From positions 95,163 to 159,162 of the forward strand of contig NZ_AWFF01000065.1 of NCBI RefSeq assembly GCF_000682755.1: DNA of 64,000 nucleotides, in the 5' to 3' direction. Position numbers and translations under genes: made by a program. The notes beneath the pieces are model-generated. The model searched no databases, was not told the DNA's origin, and was given only the letters and a program-made list of their open reading frames with translations. Of the stretch, positions 7,082 to 23,414 are shown in pieces (position 1 is the stretch's first letter; each line of letters opens with the position of its first letter). The DNA is from Hyphomonas beringensis (GTDB taxonomy: Bacteria > Pseudomonadota > Alphaproteobacteria > Caulobacterales > Hyphomonadaceae).

Positions 7082-7876
7082 ATGTCACATCATCCGAAGA
7101 GAGACCGTCTGAAGCGCCAGATCCGGCTATGCTGGCTGCTCGGCTGGAGTGTTCCGCGCATTGCGGCGCAGGTGGGGCTGCACCGGTCCACGGTCTATCA
7201 CCTGATGCGGCAGCATCAGCTGACCGAACCCGAACAGGCGCTGGAGCGCCTGCAGCTGTCCATGGACGAGGCGCAGGACCTTGCGACGGAACAGATGCTG
7301 GCCGCTGCGGCGGCGGGTGAGGACATCACGCCGAAAGTAACCCAGCTGGTGCGGGTCAGCACAGAAGTGCGCCAGCTGGAAATGGCAGGAATAAAGATTG
7401 GGGGAAATGCCAGTGAACGGGAGGCCGATAGTGGCGCAGAAGAGGCGCAAGAAGACATCTATGCCTTCCTCACCCATGAGGGAAAAGGGCGACCAGTTGA
7501 TGGACCCGGTCTTCCGCAGAGAGGTGCGCCATGCGTACGAGACGCGGGACTGGAGCGGCCTGCCGCCGAAGACGGGCGAATTGGTGGCGGAAAATCCGTG
7601 GCTGCGGCTGGCCCGCGATACACAGGTTCCGCCGCGGGCGGGCTGGCGGACATGTCTGTTCATGGGCGGACGTGGCGCTGGCAAGACACGGGCCGGGGCC
7701 GAATGGCTGCGCTGGAGCCTGCTGCACAGCAGGAAGAGGCGTGCGGCGCTGGTGGGGCCGGCCCTGCACGATGTGCGCGAAGTGATGATCGATGGGCCGA
7801 GCGGCCTGAAATGGATCGAGCCAAGGCAGGACTATCGCCCAGTCTATCATGCGAGCCGGCGTATCCTGAGCTTTGA
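7082..7876 (+). CDS. GTA small-terminase-like (gp1/TerS) helix-turn-helix protein with run-on 3' end
   Basis: The N-terminal ~45 residues form a helix-turn-helix (RLCWLLGWSVPRIAAQVGLHRSTVYHLMRQHQL), followed by a helical segment to about residue 135. This fits the small terminase gene that precedes TerL in RcGTA-type clusters. A GGAGG-type ribosome site precedes the ATG. The family is normally about 110-140 residues, but no stop occurs in this frame until 7876, giving 264 residues and a ~375-nt out-of-frame overlap with TerL. Past about residue 140 the translation looks like antisense-style shadow sequence. A lost stop or small frameshift near 7430-7500 is likely. Confidence 0.55.
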   Translation: MSHHPKRDRLKRQIRLCWLLGWSVPRIAAQVGLHRSTVYHLMRQHQLTEPEQALERLQLSMDEAQDLATEQMLAAAAAGEDITPKVTQLVRVSTEVRQLEMAGIKIGGNASEREADSGAEEAQEDIYAFLTHEGKGRPVDGPGLPQRGAPCVRDAGLERPAAEDGRIGGGKSVAAAGPRYTGSAAGGLADMSVHGRTWRWQDTGRGRMAALEPAAQQEEACGAGGAGPARCARSDDRWAERPEMDRAKAGLSPSLSCEPAYPEL

Positions 7877-8798
7877 TAATGGCGCAGAGGCGCATGTCTT
7901 CTCTGCCGAAGACCCGGACAGTCTGCGGGGCCCGCAATTCGATGTCGCCTGGTGTGACGAGATTGCCGCATGGGCGAAGGGAGAGACGGTTTGGGACACG
8001 CTGCAGATGGGCCTGCGCCTGGGGCAGGCGCCGCGCTGCTTTGCCTCCACGACTCCGCGGGCGGTGGACCTGATGCGCCGCCTGCTGTCGGCAGATACGG
8101 CAGAGGCCGTGCATGTGATGCGCGCGGGAACAGAGGAGAATGCGGAGAATCTCTCGCCGGGCTTCCTCAGCGCCATGAAGGCCGCCTATGGCGACAGCCA
8201 GCTGGCACGGCAGGAACTGAATGGCGAATTCATGGAAGACCCCGAAGGTGCATTGTTCCGCAGGGGGATGATTGACGGGGCGCGCGTGGACGCCCCGCCC
8301 ATGATGGAGGATGTCATCATTGCGGTCGACCCGCCGGCGACCAGCGGCCCGGCGGCAGATGCGTGCGGCATCATCGCGGCGGGCGTGCGCAGCGGACATG
8401 CCTATGTGCTGGCCGATGCGTCCGCGCCGGGGCTGAAGCCGCTGGACTGGGCCCGGCGCGCGGTGGCGGTGTGCCGCGAAACGGGCGCGCGGGAGATTAT
8501 TGCAGAGGCCAATCAGGGCGGCGAAATGGTGCGGCAGATATTGGAAAGCGCCGGGGCGGGCGTGCCGGTGCGCCTGGTCCATGCGCGCCTCGGCAAGCGC
8601 GCCCGCGCCGCGCCGGTGGCGGCATTGTACGCACAGGGACGGGTCAGCCATGTAGGCCTGCTGCCCACGCTGGAAGACCAGATGTGCCGGTTTGGCGCGG
8701 AAGGGTTCAGGGGCTCCCCGGACCGCTTGGACGCGCTGGTCTGGGCCGTCTGGGCCCTGGTGCTGGAAGGCGCCGGGCCATGGGTGCGGGCGTTGTGA
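7500..8798 (+). CDS. GTA/phage large terminase subunit (gp2)
   Basis: The 432-residue protein has the Walker A motif FMGGRGAGKTRAGAEW (about residues 55-70), a Walker B-like segment FDVAWCDEIAAW, and a C-terminal RNase H-like nuclease domain (VIIAVDPPAT, then REIIAEANQGG and PDRLDALVWAVWAL). It packages DNA into proheads. The ATG at 7500 is chosen because AAGGG lies 10 nt upstream; ATGs at 7476 and 7398 are in frame. Length and motifs look intact despite the damaged surroundings. Confidence 0.92.
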   Translation: MDPVFRREVRHAYETRDWSGLPPKTGELVAENPWLRLARDTQVPPRAGWRTCLFMGGRGAGKTRAGAEWLRWSLLHSRKRRAALVGPALHDVREVMIDGPSGLKWIEPRQDYRPVYHASRRILSFDNGAEAHVFSAEDPDSLRGPQFDVAWCDEIAAWAKGETVWDTLQMGLRLGQAPRCFASTTPRAVDLMRRLLSADTAEAVHVMRAGTEENAENLSPGFLSAMKAAYGDSQLARQELNGEFMEDPEGALFRRGMIDGARVDAPPMMEDVIIAVDPPATSGPAADACGIIAAGVRSGHAYVLADASAPGLKPLDWARRAVAVCRETGAREIIAEANQGGEMVRQILESAGAGVPVRLVHARLGKRARAAPVAALYAQGRVSHVGLLPTLEDQMCRFGAEGFRGSPDRLDALVWAVWALVLEGAGPWVRAL

Positions 8799-8831
8799 TT
8801 GGGCTGGGTGTCGTGTGGAGAGTGCGTAGGA

Positions 8832-8932
8832 ACCCCCTCTGTCTCCCCCTTTTCAAGGGGGAGGACGCAGACAGGATCTGAGGTGCTTGGAGGTGGCTCT
8901 CCCCCCTTCAAGGGGGGAGCTGGAGGGGGGTA
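8832..8932. repeat. Palindromic REP/MITE-like element with two G/C-tract hairpins
   Basis: The element opens with ACCCCCTC and closes with GAGGGGGGT. Inside are two perfect hairpins, CTCCCCCTT...AAGGGGGAG (8843-8863) and CTCCCCCC...GGGGGGAG (8899-8919). It lies between the convergent ends of TerL and the DUF559 gene. Elements of this form are dispersed in many alphaproteobacterial genomes; no second copy was found in the window. Confidence 0.65.
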
Positions 8933-8951
8933 AAGCGGGGGCGCGGGAAGG

Positions 8952-9320: not shown

Positions 9321-9797
9321 TCAGCCCCCCGTACGAAAGGCCTTGCGGCCGAAATAGGCGTTTTTGGGGGGCGTGGGGTTGTCGTCTTCGGGCGTGGTTT
9401 CTTCCGTGGGCGTTTCTTCTGCGGTGACCTCTGCCGGTTTGCTCTCTGCGCTCTCCAGCGGGGCCGGCATGTTGCCGGTCATCAGGCCGCGGATCCAGGC
9501 GCAGGCGGCGCCGGCGGTGGAGACTTCGATGTCCGGCACGGTCTTGTCCATCCGGCGGGCGAGTTGGCGCGCCTGGTGGGCCGTCAGGGATTTCAGGACT
9601 TTCTCGAAGATGTCCGGCCCGACCGTTTCGCGCAGGGCCTTCATGTCTTCCGTGGTCTGACCAGCGGAGACCATCAACCTCTTGACGAGGATTTCGGTGG
9701 CGGCGGAGAAGTCTTTCTCGCCCAGCCTGCCGAAGCGGTCTTTCTGGCCCAGCAGGGCGCCGAGCGCGTTGGCGCTGTCCTTGGGGGCGTCGGTCAT
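9321..9797 (-). CDS. Unknown 158-residue protein coupled to ParA
   Basis: No family was recognised. Residues 1-105 are predicted helical and charged (GRLGEKDFSAATEILVKRLM..., LTAHQARQLARRMDK). Residues 110-145 are Glu/Thr/Pro-rich and probably disordered, and a short basic tail (NAYFGRKAFR) follows. Its ATG overlaps the ParA stop as ATGA, so the two are translationally coupled. In ParA systems the gene directly after parA usually encodes the partner that stimulates ATPase activity or binds cargo, so this is a candidate ParB-like or adaptor protein by position only. Confidence 0.7.
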   Translation of the reverse strand: MTDAPKDSANALGALLGQKDRFGRLGEKDFSAATEILVKRLMVSAGQTTEDMKALRETVGPDIFEKVLKSLTAHQARQLARRMDKTVPDIEVSTAGAACAWIRGLMTGNMPAPLESAESKPAEVTAEETPTEETTPEDDNPTPPKNAYFGRKAFRTGG

Positions 9798-10678
9798 TGG
9801 ATCTTCTCCCGCACTTCCTTGAGAAGGCTTTCCACGACGCCGAGCGCTTCGCCCGGCCATTTTGCCTTCAGGGTGGGTTCCGGGCCGAGCTCGATCGGGT
9901 TTGTGGCAAAGCCCTGTTTCATCGGCACGACGGTCTTGAACATGGTGAATTCGGTTTCCTTGGCGTTCGCCGCTTCGCGCATGGCATTGAGGACCACTTG
10001 CTGGTGCGGTGTGCCATCATAGCGAGTCGCCAGCACACAGGGGAGACTATCAATATCACGCCCGCGCAGATTGCGCATGATGTCCCCGGTGAAGAGGTCC
10101 AGGCCGAGGGTGGACATGAAGTCCGGAATGGTGGGCACGATGATCAGGTGGCTGGCGGCCAGCACGGTTTCGGTCATCACGGAAATGCCGGGCGGGCAGT
10201 CACAGATGATGACGTCATAGTCGGCTTTCAGCTTTTCAAAGTCGTCACGCATGCGTCGGCCGACCTGGCCCTGCAGCGCCTCCATGGAATAGCCCTTGGC
10301 GGTCAGCTCATAGATCAGCTCGCGCTCTGTCTTGCGCAGGCGCGGTGAGGAGGGGATCAGGTCCAGCTCCAGCGACTTGCCATTATAGGTGACATCGGAC
10401 GCATCTGTGACGATGAAGTCTGACAGGCGCTTGTGCTCACCCGCGAAGAAATTCTCCAGCAGCCAGTCGGAAATCGTGACGTATTCATTGATCGCGCGGA
10501 ACAGATGCTCGTCGCCCTCATGCCCGAAAACCAGCAGCGAGGCGTTGGCCTGCGTGTCCAGATCCACGACCAAAGTGCGGAAGCCATTGGCGGCAAATGC
10601 CTCTGCAAGGCTGACACAAGTGGTGGTCTTGCCGACCCCGCCCTTGGAGTTGGCAATGGATATGACACGTGCTGACAT
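9794..10678 (-). CDS. ParA/MinD-family ATPase
   Basis: The 294-residue protein has the deviant Walker A motif SKGGVGKTTT at residues 9-18, LVVDLDTQAN (switch I/Walker A' region) and a Walker B segment DYDVIICDCPPG. It lacks an N-terminal DNA-binding domain, so it resembles the short class of cargo-positioning ParA. The start at 10678 has AGGGAG about 7-8 nt upstream and places the P-loop at the usual distance. Co-transcribed with an unknown partner and a DUF559 gene, it sits in reverse orientation inside the GTA locus. It is not MipZ by sequence pattern. Confidence 0.88.
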   Translation of the reverse strand: MSARVISIANSKGGVGKTTTCVSLAEAFAANGFRTLVVDLDTQANASLLVFGHEGDEHLFRAINEYVTISDWLLENFFAGEHKRLSDFIVTDASDVTYNGKSLELDLIPSSPRLRKTERELIYELTAKGYSMEALQGQVGRRMRDDFEKLKADYDVIICDCPPGISVMTETVLAASHLIIVPTIPDFMSTLGLDLFTGDIMRNLRGRDIDSLPCVLATRYDGTPHQQVVLNAMREAANAKETEFTMFKTVVPMKQGFATNPIELGPEPTLKAKWPGEALGVVESLLKEVREKIQ

Positions 10679-10832
10679 TCTGTTAGCTCCCTGGGCGCCT
10701 GATAGTTCGGCGAAAAAGCAGATTTGCACCGATCTGGCTATGCCTGCACGGGAATAAAATACAGGGAAAAATCCGGCGCTCTCCCTGATATTCTGGCGGC
10801 AAACACCTGTTTTTGAAGGGCTTTTCCAAACT

Positions 10833-10846
10833 GAATCCGATGGGGG
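10833..10846 (+). repeat. 14-bp direct repeat upstream of the portal gene (copy 2)
   Basis: Exact second copy of GAATCCGATGGGGG (first at 7028-7041). It lies 50 nt before the portal ATG in the gap that separates the divergent ParA operon from the portal gene. Confidence 0.5.
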
Positions 10847-10896
10847 CGCTGAAGATTTAATTTCTGCTCATCGAACGAAACAGAGCGGAGCCCTTC

Positions 10897-12051
10897 ATGA
10901 AACCCATCTGGCCTTTCCGGTTGCCCCAGCGCGAAGCGAAAGCGGCGGTGCCTCTGGTCGCGCTCTCAGAAATCGGGGCGGCCCGGTGGGGCGCACGCGA
11001 TGGCGCGGCGCTGACACGAGACGGGTATTTGCAGAATGCCGTGGCCTATCGCGCCGTGCGCATGGTGGCGGAGGCGGCGGCGTCCGTTCCGCTGGTCACG
11101 GCGCATGACGGGGCGGCGCGGCTGATCCGCCGGCCACAGCCGGATGGGGTCGCGGCCGAACTGTTAGAAGCGGTCTATTCCCAGCTTCAGCTGACGGGCA
11201 ATGCGTTTCTGGAAGGCGTGTGCCTGGAGGCTTTGGGGCAGGCTGGGGGGGCGGCAGACGGGGCGGGGGTGCACGCGCTTTATGCGCTGGCCCCGTCTGC
11301 CATGCGGCCCCTGAAGGATACGCGCGGCTGGGTGGAGGCCTGGGCCGTGAAGGAGCGCCATGGCGAGCGGGTGATCCGCCGGGATGCGGAAACAGGCTGG
11401 AGCCCGGTGCTGCACCTGAAACTGTTCAACCCGGTGAATGACACGCTGGGCCTGGCCCCGCTGGGCGCGGCACGGCGGGCGCTGGACCTGCACAATGCCA
11501 GCGCGGACTGGGCGAAGGCGCTGATCGACAATTCGGCCAAGCCGTCTGGCGCGCTGGTCTATGGCGGACATGGGCGGATGCCGCCGGACCAGTTCGAGGC
11601 GCTGAAGACGGAACTGGAGAACATGTATTCCGGCGCGGCCAATGCGGGCCGGCCCCTTCTGCTGGAAGGCGGGCTGGACTGGCGGCCGATGTCTCTGTCA
11701 CCGGCCGAGATGGACTTTCTGGAAGCGCGCCATGCGGCGGCGCGGGAGATTGCGCTGGCGCTGGGCGTGCCGCCCATGCTGTTGGGCATTCCGGGGGATA
11801 ATACGTATTCGAACTATAAGGAGGCAAACCTCGCCTTCTGGCGAATGACGATTTTGCCGCTGGTGCAGAAATTCGCCGGCGCGCTGTCGGCCTGGCTGGA
11901 TGTGCCATTCGGGCAGGATGTGGAGATCCGCGCAGATATTGACCGCGTGCCGGCGCTGTCGGCTGAGCGCGATGCGCTGTGGGCGCGGCTGGAGAGCGCG
12001 AGCTTTGCCAGCGTTGAGGAAAAACGGCGGCTGGCGGGGCTGCAGCCATGA
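10897..12051 (+). CDS. GTA/HK97-family portal protein (gp3)
   Basis: The 384-residue protein shows portal features: RAVRMVAEAAASVPL near the N-terminus, LLEAVYSQLQLTGNAFLEGV in the middle, and the C-terminal core LALGVPPMLLGIPGDNTYSNYKEANLAFWRMTILPL. Portals form the dodecameric DNA entry channel of the capsid. GGAG precedes the ATG. It would normally follow TerL directly; here 2.1 kb of opposite-strand genes intervene. The reading frame is complete. Confidence 0.92.
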   Translation: MKPIWPFRLPQREAKAAVPLVALSEIGAARWGARDGAALTRDGYLQNAVAYRAVRMVAEAAASVPLVTAHDGAARLIRRPQPDGVAAELLEAVYSQLQLTGNAFLEGVCLEALGQAGGAADGAGVHALYALAPSAMRPLKDTRGWVEAWAVKERHGERVIRRDAETGWSPVLHLKLFNPVNDTLGLAPLGAARRALDLHNASADWAKALIDNSAKPSGALVYGGHGRMPPDQFEALKTELENMYSGAANAGRPLLLEGGLDWRPMSLSPAEMDFLEARHAAAREIALALGVPPMLLGIPGDNTYSNYKEANLAFWRMTILPLVQKFAGALSAWLDVPFGQDVEIRADIDRVPALSAERDALWARLESASFASVEEKRRLAGLQP

Positions 12052-12278
12052 AGATGGAACAGAAGGTGACGGCGGGGTTCGTGCTGGCGGTGCTGGTGCA
12101 GACCGGCGGGGCGCTGGTCTGGGCCGGGGCAGCGGCAGAGCGGATTTCGCACCTGGAGCAGACCGTCCGGGAACGGCGCACAATGGTGGAGCGGCTGGCG
12201 CGTCTGGAAGAGGGTGTCGACCGGATGGAAAGCCAGCTGGACCGGATCGAGCGGAAGATGGAGGTGGGGGATGAGTAG
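12048..12278 (+). CDS. Small GTA-cluster membrane/coiled-coil protein
   Basis: A 76-residue protein with one N-terminal TM helix (VTAGFVLAVLVQTGGALVWAG) and a C-terminal heptad coiled coil (LEQTVRERRTMVERLARLEEGVDRMESQLDRIERK). It overlaps the portal stop by 4 nt and the protease start by 8 nt. Its position matches the small unnamed gene between portal and protease in RcGTA-type clusters. No function is claimed. Confidence 0.75.
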   Translation: MKMEQKVTAGFVLAVLVQTGGALVWAGAAAERISHLEQTVRERRTMVERLARLEEGVDRMESQLDRIERKMEVGDE

Positions 12279-12807
12279 CACCCAATATGGCGCTCATCCC
12301 GGCGCAGGCCGGGATCCAGTGCGGCGGAGCCTGCTGCCTGACTTTCTGGGCCCCGACTTTCGTCGGGGTGAGCGGACGTCATCGGACCTCCTCATCGAAG
12401 GCTATGCCTCTCTGTTCGGGGTGCCGGATGCGAGTGGGGATGTGGTGCGGGCGGGGGCGTTTTCGCGCAGCCTGCAGAGGGCCGCGCCTGTGCCGATGCT
12501 GTTGCAGCACAGGCCGGGCGCGATTGCCGGGCGCTGGGTGCGCATGGTGGAGGATGGCCGTGGGCTTTACGTGCGCGGACTGATCGAAAGCGCGGCGGCG
12601 CGCAGCATGGCGGAAAGCGGCTTGAGCGGCCTGTCCATCGGCTTTCGTCCGCGCATCTGGAACCGGCGAAGGCCCGATGGGCGCGAACTGGTTGAGGTGG
12701 ACCTGGTGGAAGTGTCGCTGGTGGCGAGCCCGATGCAGGCACGGGCGCGGTTCGCCCTGATGGGCGCAGCGGCAGCGCGAAACAATTTTCAAATGGAGAG
12801 AACATGA
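12271..12807 (+). CDS. GTA/phage prohead protease (gp4) with in-frame repeat insertion
   Basis: The 178-residue protein has the HK97 prohead protease pattern LIEGYASLFGVPDASGDVVRAGAF, PMLLQHRPGAIAGRW (His active-site region) and SGLSIGFRPR (Ser). It normally processes capsid and scaffold. Residues ~7-34 come from an 84-bp palindromic element inserted in frame just after the start, giving the HPGAGRDP peptide typical of these repeats. The ATG at 12271 overlaps the previous stop. With no capsid gene left, its substrate is missing. Confidence 0.88.
   Translation: MSSTQYGAHPGAGRDPVRRSLLPDFLGPDFRRGERTSSDLLIEGYASLFGVPDASGDVVRAGAFSRSLQRAAPVPMLLQHRPGAIAGRWVRMVEDGRGLYVRGLIESAAARSMAESGLSGLSIGFRPRIWNRRRPDGRELVEVDLVEVSLVASPMQARARFALMGAAAARNNFQMERT
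12291..12374 (+). repeat. 84-bp palindromic HPGAGRDP-type repeat inside the protease gene
   Basis: Ends are inverted: CGCTCATCCC at the left and GGGGTGAGCG at the right (9 of 10 match). Internal hairpins are ATCCCGGC/GCCGGGAT and CCCCGAC/GTCGGGG. The length of 84 bp is divisible by three and the element carries no stop in the host frame, so the gene stays open. Confidence 0.75.
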
Positions 12808-13364
12808 CCAAGGAAACGAAAATGGCAGGCGGGACGGATCAGGGCTGGGAGCTGATCCAGTTTGAGGAGGCTGTATTGGTCGCAGAAGACACATGGCGGC
12901 TATCCGGCCTGTTGAGGGGGCAACGCGGCAGTGTGCCGGGCGTGGCCGAGGCAGGGGCGCGGCTGGTGCTGCTGGATGGCGCTGTCGTGCAGGCGGCGGT
13001 GGGGCCTGAGGAGATCGGGCTGGATCTCATCTGGCAGGCGGCGGGCGATGACGAGGCTGAGACGCTGTCTTTCGAAGACCGGGCCGGGCTGCCCTGGCCG
13101 GTCGCGCATCTGAAAGCCAGCAGCGGCCAACTCAGCTGGACACGGCGCGGGGCAGACCTGCCGGAAAGCTGGGCCTTGCCAGAAGGGGGAAATACCGGAA
13201 GTTTCGCGCTGGAGGCCGATACCGGAAGCGGATTTTCCGGCGAAAGCCCTGTCTCTGAGGCCTCTGCGGCTGTGCCATCTGGCGCTGTGGCGGTGCGGGT
13301 TGCGGCGATCGGCGCGGACGGTCGTTACGGCCCGTGGGTTTCAATACGCCTCGGGACTTCCTAA
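12804..13364 (+). pseudogene. Deletion-fusion remnant: start of GTA gene 5 joined to C-terminus of gp15 tail protein
   Basis: The 186-residue frame begins MTKETKMAGG, then abruptly becomes WELIQFEEAVLVAEDTWRLSGLLRGQRG, PWPVAHLKASSGQLSWTRRG and a fibronectin-like end. These match the extreme C-terminal part of the ~1,300-residue GTA gp15 host-specificity/megatron protein. The ATG overlaps the protease stop (ATGA) exactly where the capsid gene should begin. The simplest reading is one in-frame deletion of about ten genes, from the capsid start to the end of gp15. That the first ten residues come from the capsid gene is inference from position. Confidence 0.72.
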
Positions 13365-13408
13365 TTGAGGGCTGATAGAAGATTCTCTAACAGAAGGAAT
13401 AACCGACC

Positions 13409-14296
13409 TTGGCTCTTGACCCTTACAAGGTGCTCGGTGTGGACCGCAAAGCCAGCGAGGCCGAGATCAAGAAGGCCTACCGGCAGAAGGCGAAAGCCCT
13501 GCACCCCGATTTGCACCCGGATGACGACAAGAAAGCGGAAGAGTTCAAGCGCGTCTCCCAGGCCTGGGACATTCTGGGCGACAAGGAGAAGCGCGCGAAA
13601 TTCGACCGCGGCGAGATTGATGGCGACGGCAATCCGACCGGCTTTGGCGGCGGCGGTGGCGGTGGTTTCCCTGGCGGCGCGCCCGGTGGCGGCGGATTCC
13701 GCTGGGAATCGCGCGGCGGCGACCCGTTTGGCGGTACGCAGGGAGACCCGTTCGAGGATATCCTCTCCGGCATGTTTGGCGGGCGCGGACGGCGCAATGC
13801 CGGCCCGATGAAGGGCCGCGACGTGCGCTATCGTGTGGCCATCGATTTTGAAGACGCCGTGACCGGCGCGCGTCGGCGCATGACCATGGCTGACGGCACG
13901 GCGCTGGATGTGAACATTCCCGCCGGCATTGAGAGCGGCCAGACGCTGCGCCTGAAAAGCCAGGGCCAGCAATCCCCGAATGGCGGCCCGCCCGGAGACG
14001 CGATGCTGGAAGTGGAAGTCAAACCCAGCAAGGTGTGGGAGCGCGACGGCAAGGATCTTCGCATGACTGTACCGGTCAGCCTGAAAGTGGCTGTGCTGGG
14101 CGGCAGTGTGGATGTGAAGACCCCCTCTGGCAATGTGACACTGAAAGTGCCTGCGGGCTCCAATACCGGCTCTCAGCTGCGCCTGCGTGGCAAGGGCGTG
14201 CAGTCGACCCCGCCGGGCAATCTCTATGCGCGGCTGGAGATCGTGCTGGAGGATCCGAAGGATGAAAGCCTGAAGAAATGGGCCGAAGGGCAGTAA
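13409..14296 (+). CDS. DnaJ-class co-chaperone (CbpA/DnaJ-like, no zinc fingers)
   Basis: The 295-residue protein has an N-terminal J domain with the HPD tripeptide (KALHPDLHPDD), a Gly/Phe-rich linker (about 75-115) and the DnaJ C-terminal peptide-binding domains, with no Cys-rich zinc module. J proteins stimulate DnaK ATPase. The start is a TTG at 13409 preceded by AGAAGGA at good spacing; no ATG fits the J-domain start. It lies 44 nt after the GTA remnant and marks the return to ordinary chromosome. Confidence 0.92.
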   Translation: MALDPYKVLGVDRKASEAEIKKAYRQKAKALHPDLHPDDDKKAEEFKRVSQAWDILGDKEKRAKFDRGEIDGDGNPTGFGGGGGGGFPGGAPGGGGFRWESRGGDPFGGTQGDPFEDILSGMFGGRGRRNAGPMKGRDVRYRVAIDFEDAVTGARRRMTMADGTALDVNIPAGIESGQTLRLKSQGQQSPNGGPPGDAMLEVEVKPSKVWERDGKDLRMTVPVSLKVAVLGGSVDVKTPSGNVTLKVPAGSNTGSQLRLRGKGVQSTPPGNLYARLEIVLEDPKDESLKKWAEGQ

Positions 14297-14442
14297 CCGG
14301 CTGCCTTTTCCGCCCTTTCTACAGGAAATTCCCCGAACAACGTTGACATCGGCGCCCCGGCTTTGGCCTAAGGGAAGGCAAGTCATCTGCGGCCAGTCCT
14401 GCAGATGACGGGGCATTACCTTGTAGAGTGAAGAGGCAGGCG

Positions 14443-15606
14443 ATGGCACGACGCGCGCGGAGAAAGATTTTTTCCAGAGGCAGACAGGCCATCACGGCCC
14501 TCGCCATCATCGCGCTGACGGGGTGTGCGCATCCGAACCGGCCGATTGCCCCCATCGCGTCTGACACGCTGGTCTATTCCGAGGCGCTGTCGACGGCGCG
14601 CGAGGAGCAGCTGCTTCTGAATATTGTTCGTTTACGGTATAATGATCCCGTCAGTTTCGTGGATGCCGAGCGCATCACCACGACCGACAACACCCAGGTG
14701 AATGGCGGCCTGTCTTCCGCGATTGGCCTCAGCGGGCAGGATCTGGATCAGGTGCTGAACGGCAATGTCGGCACGAATATGAGCAGCCAGCCCACGATTG
14801 CCTATTCGGCCCTGCGCGGGTCTGACTATGCCCAGCAGGTTTTGCAGCCCCTGCCGCCGGCAACGATCTTCCTGATGAGCCAGTCTGGCTGGAGCGTGGA
14901 GCGGCTGATGCTGTGTTGCGTTTCCCGCATCGGGGATCTGGAAAACGCGCGCGCCGCCGCTGGCCCGCCACCGCCGGTGATGCCGGACAATGCCCGCTTC
15001 CGGGAACTCGCCAGCCTGATGAGTTCCCTGCAAGAGCGCGGCGATCTGCTGGTGCAGGTGATCGATGCGGACCAGAGCGATGAGGACAGTGACGGCAAGC
15101 CGCGTGTCATTCTGAAATGGCGGCGCACGTCTGATCTGGGCCAGCAGCTGGCAGACTTCTTCCGCCGCTATTGGGTGTCTGATGTCAGCGTGATCTCCGG
15201 GGACCGCTACATCACCGAAATCTCCACACGCGGTAATTCCCTTGGCGATTACGCCGCACGGGGACGGTCTGTGCTCGGGGTGATGTCGGCGCTCTCCCAG
15301 TCCGTGCATGTGCCGGAAGAGCACAAGCAGATCGCCCGGTCAGCCCTGCCGGTGATGGAACCCTCGTCTGACCCGTGCCGCGCGCCGGGCGGCTGGCATG
15401 ACATAAATGGCGGCCTGTTTGCGGTTCAGTCGTCCAGGGAAAAGCCGACAACTGCCACGGTTTCCGTGCAGTATCGTGGTTACTGGTTCTACATTGACGA
15501 TCGCTGCCATGATGCCAAGGCAACGCTGAATCTGCTGGATCACCTGTATGCATTACAGGCGGGTATATCTTCCGATGCCACAACGCTGTTGCTGTTGGGG
15601 GGCTGA
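14443..15606 (+). CDS. Hypothetical lipoprotein
   Basis: The 387-residue protein has a basic N-terminus, a hydrophobic stretch and a lipobox (AIIALTGC). The mature part begins with DTLVYSEALSTAREEQLLLNIVRLRYNDPVSFVD, a pattern seen in uncharacterised proteobacterial lipoproteins. No enzymatic motif was seen. A possible sigma-70 -35 TTGACA lies at 14343. ATG 14443 is chosen over a GTG at 14428. Its end overlaps the longest possible start of the following LuxR gene. Confidence 0.8.
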   Translation: MARRARRKIFSRGRQAITALAIIALTGCAHPNRPIAPIASDTLVYSEALSTAREEQLLLNIVRLRYNDPVSFVDAERITTTDNTQVNGGLSSAIGLSGQDLDQVLNGNVGTNMSSQPTIAYSALRGSDYAQQVLQPLPPATIFLMSQSGWSVERLMLCCVSRIGDLENARAAAGPPPPVMPDNARFRELASLMSSLQERGDLLVQVIDADQSDEDSDGKPRVILKWRRTSDLGQQLADFFRRYWVSDVSVISGDRYITEISTRGNSLGDYAARGRSVLGVMSALSQSVHVPEEHKQIARSALPVMEPSSDPCRAPGGWHDINGGLFAVQSSREKPTTATVSVQYRGYWFYIDDRCHDAKATLNLLDHLYALQAGISSDATTLLLLGG

Positions 15607-15676
15607 TCTTCTCAGGCTTGTGTCCAGGTCGGCGCTACAGTACGATAAAAGCCTGTGTCAGCTTGAAGGGCCCGCC

Positions 15677-21525: not shown

Positions 21526-23414
21526 TCGAACTTGGCCATCTGGCGGCCTTCCTGTCTCTGGCGCTGGCGCTGGCGCAGGGGATTTACGGCCTTATGGGGC
21601 AGCGGCGTATAGCTGGCTGGGCGGCGATGGCCGCGTTCGGCCTGATGCTGATCTCGTTCCTGACGCTGGTTATGGCCTTTGTGCGGTCTGACTTTTCCGT
21701 GGCGCTGGTGGCGCAGCATTCCCACACGCTGAAGCCGATGCTGTACAAGATCTCCGGCGCGTGGGGGAACCATGAGGGCTCCATGGCGCTGTGGTGCCTG
21801 GTGACGCTGGGCTTTGGCGCGGCGGGTGCAGTGTGGATGAAGACCGGGCGCGAAAAGCTGGAAGCGCGTACGCTGGGCATTCAGGGCCTGCTGGCCGTTG
21901 GCGCGATGAGCTATCTGCTGTTTGCGTCGTCGCCCTTCCTGCGCCTGGACCCGGCCCCGTTTCAGGGCGCGGGCCTGAACCCCCTGTTGCAGGACCCGGC
22001 GCTGAGCTTTCACCCGCCCATGCTGTATCTCGGCTATGTCGGCTATTCCTTTGTCTTTGCGCTGGCCGCGGCCGGCATGATGGAAAGCCGCATTGATGCG
22101 GTCTGGGCGCGCGAAGCGCGGCGCTGGTCTCTGGCGGCCTTTGTGCCGCTGACCATCGGCATCGCGCTCGGGTCCTACTGGGCCTATTACGAGCTCGGCT
22201 GGGGCGGCTGGTGGTTCTGGGACCCGGTGGAGAATGCCTCCCTGATGCCGTGGCTGATCGGTGCCGCGCTGCTCCATTCCGTCATCGTGACGGAGAAGCG
22301 CGAGGGCTTTTCTGCCTGGACCGCGCTGCTGGCGGTGCTGGCATTCCTGTTCTCGATCATGGGCGCCTTCCTTGTGCGCTCCGGCGTTTTGACCTCCGTG
22401 CACGCCTTTGCTGTTGATCCGGAGCGGGGGGCGATCCTGCTGTTCGGTCTCGTCCTGTATGGCGGATTTGCGCTGATCCTGTTTGCGCTCAGGGCCTACA
22501 AGCTTTCCGGGGGCAAGCCCTGGGTATTGCTCAGCCGCGAAGGTGCGCTGATGGCGAATAATATCGTGTTGATCGTGGCGACGCTGACGGTGCTGCTGGG
22601 CACATTGTTCCCGCTGATGGCGGAAGCGGCCGGCAAGACGATCTCAGTTGGCGAGCCCTATTTCCGGCTGACCTTCACGCCGATGCTGGCCGCCTTGCTG
22701 GTGATCTTGCCTGTGGTACAGGCCTGGGCGTGGGGCAAGGCGGATCTCAGCAACTGGATGAAATGGGCCGCAGGCGGCATTGCGCTGGTGCTGGTGTTCA
22801 TGGCTTTGGGCGTCGGCATCTGGAGCATTTCGCTGGGCGCGGCCTTTGGCCTGGCGCTGGGCGTATGGCTGGTGTTTGGCGCGCTGTATGAACTGTCACG
22901 CCGGGCGGTGACCGTGAAACGTGTGTTCAAGATGCCGCCACGTGTCTGGGGTATGACGCTGGCGCATGTCGGTCTCGGCCTGTTCGTGATCGGCGCGGTT
23001 GTGGAGACGACGGGGCGTTATGAAACCACGGTCGCCCTGGCCGAAGGTGGCACGGGAACGGCGGCTGGCTGGACGCTGACGCTGGACGAAGTGCGCGCGA
23101 TCGAAGGCCCGAACTGGTATGCAGACCGCGCGGTGCTGACGGCGGTGAAAGGCGGCACGAAAGCCGTGCTGGCCCCGATGAAACGCTACTATCCCGCCGC
23201 GCAGATGCCGACGACGGAAACGGCGATCCACAAGACCGGCACAGGCGACCTCTATATGGCGCTTGGCGAACAGCGCATTGTGGATGGTGAGCCGCGCTGG
23301 GTGTTCCGCGTCTATTTCAATCCGCTGATTGACCTTGTCTATTTCGGCGTCATCCTGATGGCGATTGGTGGCGGCTTCTGCCTGTGGCCGCGCAAGAGGA
23401 CGAAAACGGCATGA
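21522..23414 (+). CDS. ccmF: Cytochrome c heme lyase subunit CcmF
   Basis: 630 residues with about 14-15 TM helices and the Trp-rich WWD signature (ELGWGGWWFWDPVENASLMPWLIGAALLHS). It reduces and ligates heme to apocytochrome c with CcmH and CcmI. Start and stop overlap ccmE and ccmH by 4 nt, so the genes form one operon. Confidence 0.97.
   Translation: MIELGHLAAFLSLALALAQGIYGLMGQRRIAGWAAMAAFGLMLISFLTLVMAFVRSDFSVALVAQHSHTLKPMLYKISGAWGNHEGSMALWCLVTLGFGAAGAVWMKTGREKLEARTLGIQGLLAVGAMSYLLFASSPFLRLDPAPFQGAGLNPLLQDPALSFHPPMLYLGYVGYSFVFALAAAGMMESRIDAVWAREARRWSLAAFVPLTIGIALGSYWAYYELGWGGWWFWDPVENASLMPWLIGAALLHSVIVTEKREGFSAWTALLAVLAFLFSIMGAFLVRSGVLTSVHAFAVDPERGAILLFGLVLYGGFALILFALRAYKLSGGKPWVLLSREGALMANNIVLIVATLTVLLGTLFPLMAEAAGKTISVGEPYFRLTFTPMLAALLVILPVVQAWAWGKADLSNWMKWAAGGIALVLVFMALGVGIWSISLGAAFGLALGVWLVFGALYELSRRAVTVKRVFKMPPRVWGMTLAHVGLGLFVIGAVVETTGRYETTVALAEGGTGTAAGWTLTLDEVRAIEGPNWYADRAVLTAVKGGTKAVLAPMKRYYPAAQMPTTETAIHKTGTGDLYMALGEQRIVDGEPRWVFRVYFNPLIDLVYFGVILMAIGGGFCLWPRKRTKTA

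Follow-up and report, generated by a model that had tools for sequence, protein, structure and literature searches.

The closest described counterparts of the locus reported here are the RcGTA-like head-tail clusters of gene transfer agents (GTAs), with which it shares, when its homologues in genome G016 and in Hyphomonas pacifica (G009) are included, the Phage_portal, Peptidase_S78, Phage_capsid, GTA_TIM and Rcc01698_C families. Recurrent GTA loss and the idea of GTA cheaters have already been published (PMC10883770). There, ComEC and DprA are given roles in RcGTA reception, DUF2793 is named a tail fibre protein, and rate co-evolution is reported to link uptake genes with the GTA, incomplete regions having been dropped before the analysis (PMC10883770). 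The pseudogenised or lost alphaproteobacterial clusters described there were likewise inactivated while relatives kept theirs, and this occurred recurrently. The Hyphomonas case differs from those losses in that a break can be placed to within a few bases and belongs to a series of an inferred 13–17 losses in one genus. No publication on this Hyphomonas series was recognised in the GTA literature on Hyphomonadaceae and Caulobacterales, on GTA loss and on comEC/dprA, a scope that took in the accessible parts of PMC10883770, PMC9836097, PMC7200025, PMC9765227, PMC11150451 and PMC6821227, with subscription journals mostly outside it.

The stretch analysed (the window) comprises 64,000 nucleotides of a Hyphomonas beringensis contig (genome G000), and carries genes for TerL, portal and an HK97-type prohead protease, in that order. 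The terminase large subunit gene (gp2; 7413–8798, + strand; Terminase_6N/6C) is intact and its product is 90% identical in amino acids to TerL of the related genome G016. The portal gene (gp3; 10897–12051, + strand; Phage_portal, 4.6e-74; 95–96% aa identity to G016) and a small gp3.5-like gene (12048–12278, + strand; 93% aa identity to its positional counterpart in G016) are also intact, and the prohead protease gene (gp4; 12367–12807, + strand; Peptidase_S78, proheadase_HK97) has an uncertain start and a stop that overlaps the next ATG. The numbering of gp3.5 and of gp6–gp14 is presumed to follow the RcGTA gene order. A preliminary description of this DNA had placed an intact-looking TerL-portal-protease set directly before the capsid site; the genes are indeed intact, but they are not contiguous, as an antiparallel parA-like pair, also present in G016, separates TerL from the portal, and the gp3.5-like gene intervenes between portal and protease. 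The parA-like ATPase gene at 9797–10678 (− strand; AAA_31) is the left boundary of the portal–gp15 block, and a dnaJ-family chaperone gene (13409–14296, + strand; DnaJ, DnaJ_C) is the right boundary of the collapses described below. Family searches at the cluster covered TerL, portal, protease, capsid and gp15. Rfam gave no match within 12000–14400 (E <= 0.1), and the junction pattern had no match among viral contigs. As a side observation, window positions 8822–8937 and 12290–12319 match other spacers of the G016 cluster, the latter as 30 bases identical to G016 rc 2916–2945, and may represent a small interspersed repeat.

The nearest relatives of G000, namely G016 and G009 (the latter H. pacifica), have a full cluster. 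In G016 it lies complete on one contig, in the order terL, antiparallel parA pair, portal, gp3.5, protease and capsid through to gp15 and dnaJ; G009 has the same genes spread over two contigs. Both share the flanks of the G000 locus, which is thus the site of the intact cluster in relatives, as the preliminary description had expected. The gp15 product of G016 matches 6tba and 6teh, entries titled putative gene transfer agent protein, which we take to be RcGTA structures.

In place of a capsid gene, the window has an open reading frame of 186 aa (12804–13364), found in its reading-frame listing. This frame had been read beforehand as the C-terminal end of gp15, an assignment borne out by Pfam, PHROG, NCBIfam, the solved Megatron chain 8gtc and the match to G016. 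Residues 11–186 are the C-terminal end of gp15 (the GTA megatron) and residues 1–10 are the start of gp5 (capsid). The frame matches Pfam Rcc01698_C (E 9.5e-15) at profile positions 49–98 of 98 only, the domain being severed mid-way and its N-terminal half gone. It also matches PHROG tail protein 4271 (8e-19) and NCBIfam GTA_megatron (2.9e-19, positions 1097–1232 of 1299), the latter with 68 bits, far under the whole-protein cut-off of 800, as is expected for a fragment. On the left side, 12804–12833 (+ strand) holds the first ~10 codons of gp5 and matches the G016 capsid start (locus L061) in both DNA and protein, with MTKETKMAGGT in the window and MTKETKMAGGS in G016. On the right side, 12834–13364 (+ strand) holds codons 1034–1209 of gp15 and the stop, with 86% aa identity to G016 over 12834–13361. 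The two parts are joined in frame, with the four bases ATGA holding both the new start and the protease stop, unlike in G016, where the capsid start lies ~50 bases past the protease stop; the spacer ahead of the capsid start differs between the two.

DNA alignment of the window with G016 yields blocks at 9323–12278, 12385–12777 and 12795–12839 on the left and at 12833–15625 on the right. Three-way comparison with the capsid and gp15 genes of G016 places the deletion junction at 12834–12839 (+ strand), where CGGAT (12835–12839) is common to both parents. By coordinate subtraction, ~8.46 kb of G016 sequence is absent from the window, and the missing span, from capsid codon ~10 to gp15 codon ~1033, is what sets G000 apart from an RcGTA-like cluster. 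Homologues of capsid and gp13 were found nowhere in the whole G000 genome at E <= 0.001, and those parts have therefore been lost rather than moved; the other tail genes, sought at the locus only, are absent there, where gp15 is represented by codons 1034–1209 only. Since the nearest relatives have a full cluster between the same neighbours, one deletion of ~8.46 kb explains the difference, and the middle of the cluster would most simply have been removed in one recent event. As the breakpoint was placed by comparison with a relative at dS ~0.3–0.4, several successive deletions are also possible. The end points and the shared bases are observed, and joining through short homology at CGGAT was probably the mechanism. 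The single large deletion and the missing capsid and tail genes that the preliminary description had proposed are thus upheld, within the search scopes just given; of its two counter-signs, a close relative combining the short gene with a full capsid-tail set elsewhere in the locus and a frame lacking gp15 similarity, neither was encountered.

As established for GTAs and phages, particles cannot form unless genes for capsid, neck, tape measure and tail are present. These are absent from the G000 locus, and the lineage is therefore, judging from its genes, a non-producer. What the genome has kept is TerL, portal, gp3.5, protease, an unlinked tail-fibre gene, comEC and dprA. Our main reading, held at a probability of roughly 0.86, is that an RcGTA-like GTA cluster was inactivated by the ~8.46 kb deletion, leaving a non-producer lineage, that this is one of presumably 13–17 independent collapses in Hyphomonas, and that the rest of the system then decays.

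The genus survey consisted of the 42 Hyphomonas genomes returned by the search. A strong parA match was obtained in 41 of the 42 (G031 is cut by a contig end), and dnaJ is present in the fetched loci of all 42. At the parA–dnaJ site, the cluster is collapsed in 22 genomes, counted intact in 19 and uncertain in one (G027, contig gap). Six of the 19 intact-counted clusters are split over contigs (G001, G002, G004, G009, G010 and G029), with some genes lost in contig gaps (gp13 and gp14 in G004; the capsid start not seen in G029), and gp15 has a frame break in intact-counted G018 and G029. Dollo counting on a tree of parA and dnaJ gives 17 losses (17–20 over other rootings), or 13 once branches under 90% support are collapsed; when gains are costed as losses, the same tree requires 14 changes, and gains may be among them. 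From this two-gene tree, we infer that the GTA cluster was lost independently 13–17 times in Hyphomonas. The breakpoints vary, e.g., portal(1–~49)::gp15 in G019, portal(1–~240)::gp15 in G020, portal(5–349)::gp15 in G034 and gp8::gp15 in G003. Close pairs of an intact and a collapsed genome are formed by G035/G064 and by G000/G016. Among 24 genomes sampled from four other families of the same taxonomic order, the gp15 frame exceeds 1,200 aa in 19, is shorter in one and has no match in four.

Several further observations were made in the survey. By eye, G005 (L099) and G028 (L079) have gp6–gp15 fusions within ~8 bases of the same place, and the tree sister of G005 is the intact G002, which could reflect a repeated hit, a tree error or a cluster regained by recombination. 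The emptied GTA site of G011 (L100) and G023 (L103) holds a 392–393-aa ATPase gene (AAA_16 for the G011 copy), adjoined by frames that appear transposase-like by eye. G064, the close sister of the collapsed G035, has a complete cluster and a TGA inside its tail-fibre (DUF2793) match, which may mark the onset of functional loss. Some members of the genus have the terminase gene apart from the cluster: in G061 and G010, terL is ~13–14 kb away from parA, and in G001, G008, G022 and G029 it is found on a different contig, where contig breaks are possible. None of the 42 genomes, the 19 intact-counted ones included, matched DUF6456, the family of GafA/GafZ-type activators. Its absence from intact genomes makes loss of gafA uninformative as an explanation of collapse, and the GTA activator in Hyphomonas may differ from the DUF6456 type.

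The last bases of gp15 are retained in 22 of 22 collapsed genomes, even at the most eroded loci. Over the last gp15 codons of the window (13339–13366, + strand) lies a promoter-like element of dnaJ, conserved ahead of that gene. In the alignment, 41 of the 42 genomes (22/22 collapsed and 19/20 others) have the block TT[TC]CA[AT]T-N13-19-TA[ACT][CT]T at a distance of 65–72 bases ahead of dnaJ. The pattern was drawn from the same 42 sequences, and the 41/42 figure is thus no independent test; with both strands of the loci scanned, it has 42 matches in total, and the one other match in the window lies at 23315. Independent support comes from the position of the block beside dnaJ where gp15 ends elsewhere: in G003, G024, G025 and G063, gp15 ends ~140 or 626 bases from dnaJ, and the block keeps its place beside dnaJ and does not occur at the end of gp15. 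Two loci from other families (L029 and L030) lack it ahead of dnaJ, which limits the claim to Hyphomonas. A sigma-70 and terminator scan of 13200–13450 found nothing; as the element fails the sigma-70 pattern used, the term promoter derives from conservation and position. The end of gp15 probably survives in all 22 genomes because this putative dnaJ promoter overlies it; loss of the element would harm dnaJ, and deletions would stop short of it.

Other components of the system are associated with the state of the cluster. A long terL is present in all 19 intact-counted genomes and in only 5 of the 22 collapsed ones, and a full-length portal in 2 of the 22 (G000 and G003). A match to the tail-fibre family DUF2793 is found in 18/19 intact versus 9/22 collapsed genomes, full-length comEC in 19/19 versus 9/22, and dprA in 18/19 versus 9/22. 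In these counts, partial (G031, G033) and broken (G064) DUF2793 matches were scored as present and partial dprA as absent, and the comEC of G034, split by the full-length profile into two overlapping pieces, was scored as full by domain search. Among genomes at least 99% complete, comEC and dprA are each present in 14/14 intact and 8/15 collapsed genomes (Fisher P 0.0063). The exceptions among intact genomes are G002, with a cluster and no DUF2793 match, and G001 (84% complete), with a cluster and no dprA match. With the full-length ComEC profile, comEC fragments were found in 10 of the 13 collapsed genomes lacking the full gene; they were not found in G011, G021 and G030, and are weak in G065. 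Collapsed lineages, which make up 40% of tree length, account for all nine comEC losses reconstructed on the tree (binomial P 0.0003) and for nine of the ten dprA losses (P 0.002); the remaining dprA loss joins G001 with G021. Phylogenetically independent pairs all point in one direction for ComEC and DprA, at borderline significance (median sign-test P 0.0625); the association is weaker for the tail fibre (on average 5.3 pairs for and 1.0 against, median P 0.22). Five collapsed genomes, G000 among them, retain all four of terL, tail fibre, comEC and dprA, and nine retain none of the four in full.

This gene content reads as a decay series with G000 at its start: after collapse, TerL, the tail fibre, ComEC and DprA would decay in their turn, although what the counts demonstrate is an association. 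We place collapse first because ComEC is present in every one of the 19 intact-counted genomes. The comEC and dprA losses might instead reflect genome reduction at large in the collapsed lineages; the flanking control genes parA and dnaJ are kept in collapsed genomes. The preliminary description of a locus able to make packaging parts but no particle holds for the gene content of G000, but the genus shows this to be a passing state, given how few collapsed genomes keep a long terL or a full portal.

The same distribution bears on whether the G000 lineage is a cheater, i.e., one that stopped production, uses particles from its neighbours and had its deletion favoured by selection. ComEC and DprA are intact in G000, and a costly lytic trait has been lost repeatedly, in keeping with the general proposal in PMC10883770. 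Across the genus, however, collapse goes together with loss of the very uptake genes that a lasting cheater needs. As a full account this explanation is rather doubtful, and it may hold for the first stage only.

For terL, portal, gp3.5 and gp4 together, 13 changing (N) and 56 silent (S) differences fall on the G000 branch, compared with N=19 and S=48 on that of intact G016 (Fisher P 0.23), counts that leave out 34 changing and 95 silent codon differences without branch assignment. In neutral sequence of the same composition, 2.2 to 2.8 changing differences would be expected for each silent one. With a pre-deletion N/S of 0.23 and a neutral N/S of 1.5–2.5, at most 7–13% of the G000 branch has been neutral; with a pre-deletion N/S of 0.15, the limit is 10–18%. 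Such absence of relaxed selection indicates either a recent deletion or leftover genes still under selection, and TerL, portal and protease might be kept for another job, such as packaging for a helper phage or satellite. Their intact state in G000, as well as the TerL of collapsed G019, which exhibits no rise in N/S, is compatible with such a job. On the other hand, most other collapses lost them, and the TerL N/S is somewhat higher in collapsed G003 than in intact G025 (12/27 versus 6/28) and in collapsed G012 than in intact G002 (13/24 versus 10/29), all as bare counts. An independent function of TerL and portal is thus unsupported across the genus, and as a recent deletion accounts for the same data, we consider another job improbable. 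Recency is the simpler reading because most other collapsed genomes are without these packaging genes, and the deletion is probably young since the packaging genes of G000 lack relaxed selection.

The fused frame itself could be a domesticated, functional protein under selection, as it is open and overlaps the protease stop. The preliminary description, which had emphasised that the junction stays open and coupled to the protease, was accurate on both points, but as evidence of function an open in-frame junction is weak at best. By a rule that pairs adjacent recognised pieces of non-neighbouring genes (overlap <= ~60 or gap <= ~150 bases), the two sides share a frame, open through the joint, at 7 of 13 Hyphomonas junctions (G000, G013, G019, G020, G030, G034 and G062; P 0.10 against one third). 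The rule omits G003, G012, G014 and the portal::gp11 junction of G035, all of which are in a count by eye, and finds no junction in G005, G006, G011, G021, G023 and G065; the count by eye, in which G013 and G062 are not among the in-frame junctions, gives 6/14 (P 0.31). The in-frame excess is thus not clearly above chance and is not established as a sign of selection. Moreover, the left-side break is different in each of the seven, other lesions are present in G013 and G062, and the cut runs through the middle of Rcc01698_C. On the G000 branch, the gp15 piece shows N=7 and S=7, versus N=5 and S=10 in the intact relative (bare counts); for the portal portion of the G020 fusion, the values are N=26 and S=24, versus N=3 and S=9 in intact G010. 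A functional fusion is therefore very improbable; the 186-aa product, a capsid start followed by half of the C-terminal domain of gp15, is most likely a functionless by-product, and its in-frame state most likely a matter of roughly one-in-three chance. A misjoining of distant points in the assembly, with a full cluster in the true genome, is scarcely credible even for a draft of 119 contigs, as the junction sits inside a 159-kb contig, the stretch common to the parents (~5 bases) is below usual assembly k-mers, which are longer than that, and a search of the whole assembly, 99.99% complete, yielded neither capsid nor gp13.

The G000 locus, inactivated by deletion, is a further case of known GTA loss, and interest centres on the series across the genus. 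The persistence of lysis-dependent GTAs, and the possible exploitation of producers by non-producers, can be addressed through comparisons and experiments in a genus that offers 19 intact-counted and 22 collapsed loci. Where the cluster has collapsed, the loss of ComEC and DprA provides gene-content evidence that uptake genes are kept for the GTA, and complements the rate co-evolution described in PMC10883770. We would give even odds to the broader proposition that GTA making and DNA uptake form one selected unit in Hyphomonas: collapse would recur at one site, anchored by a dnaJ promoter within the last gene, ComEC, DprA, tail fibre and terminase would then decay in turn, competence would serve mainly for GTA receipt, and non-producers would not persist as cheaters.
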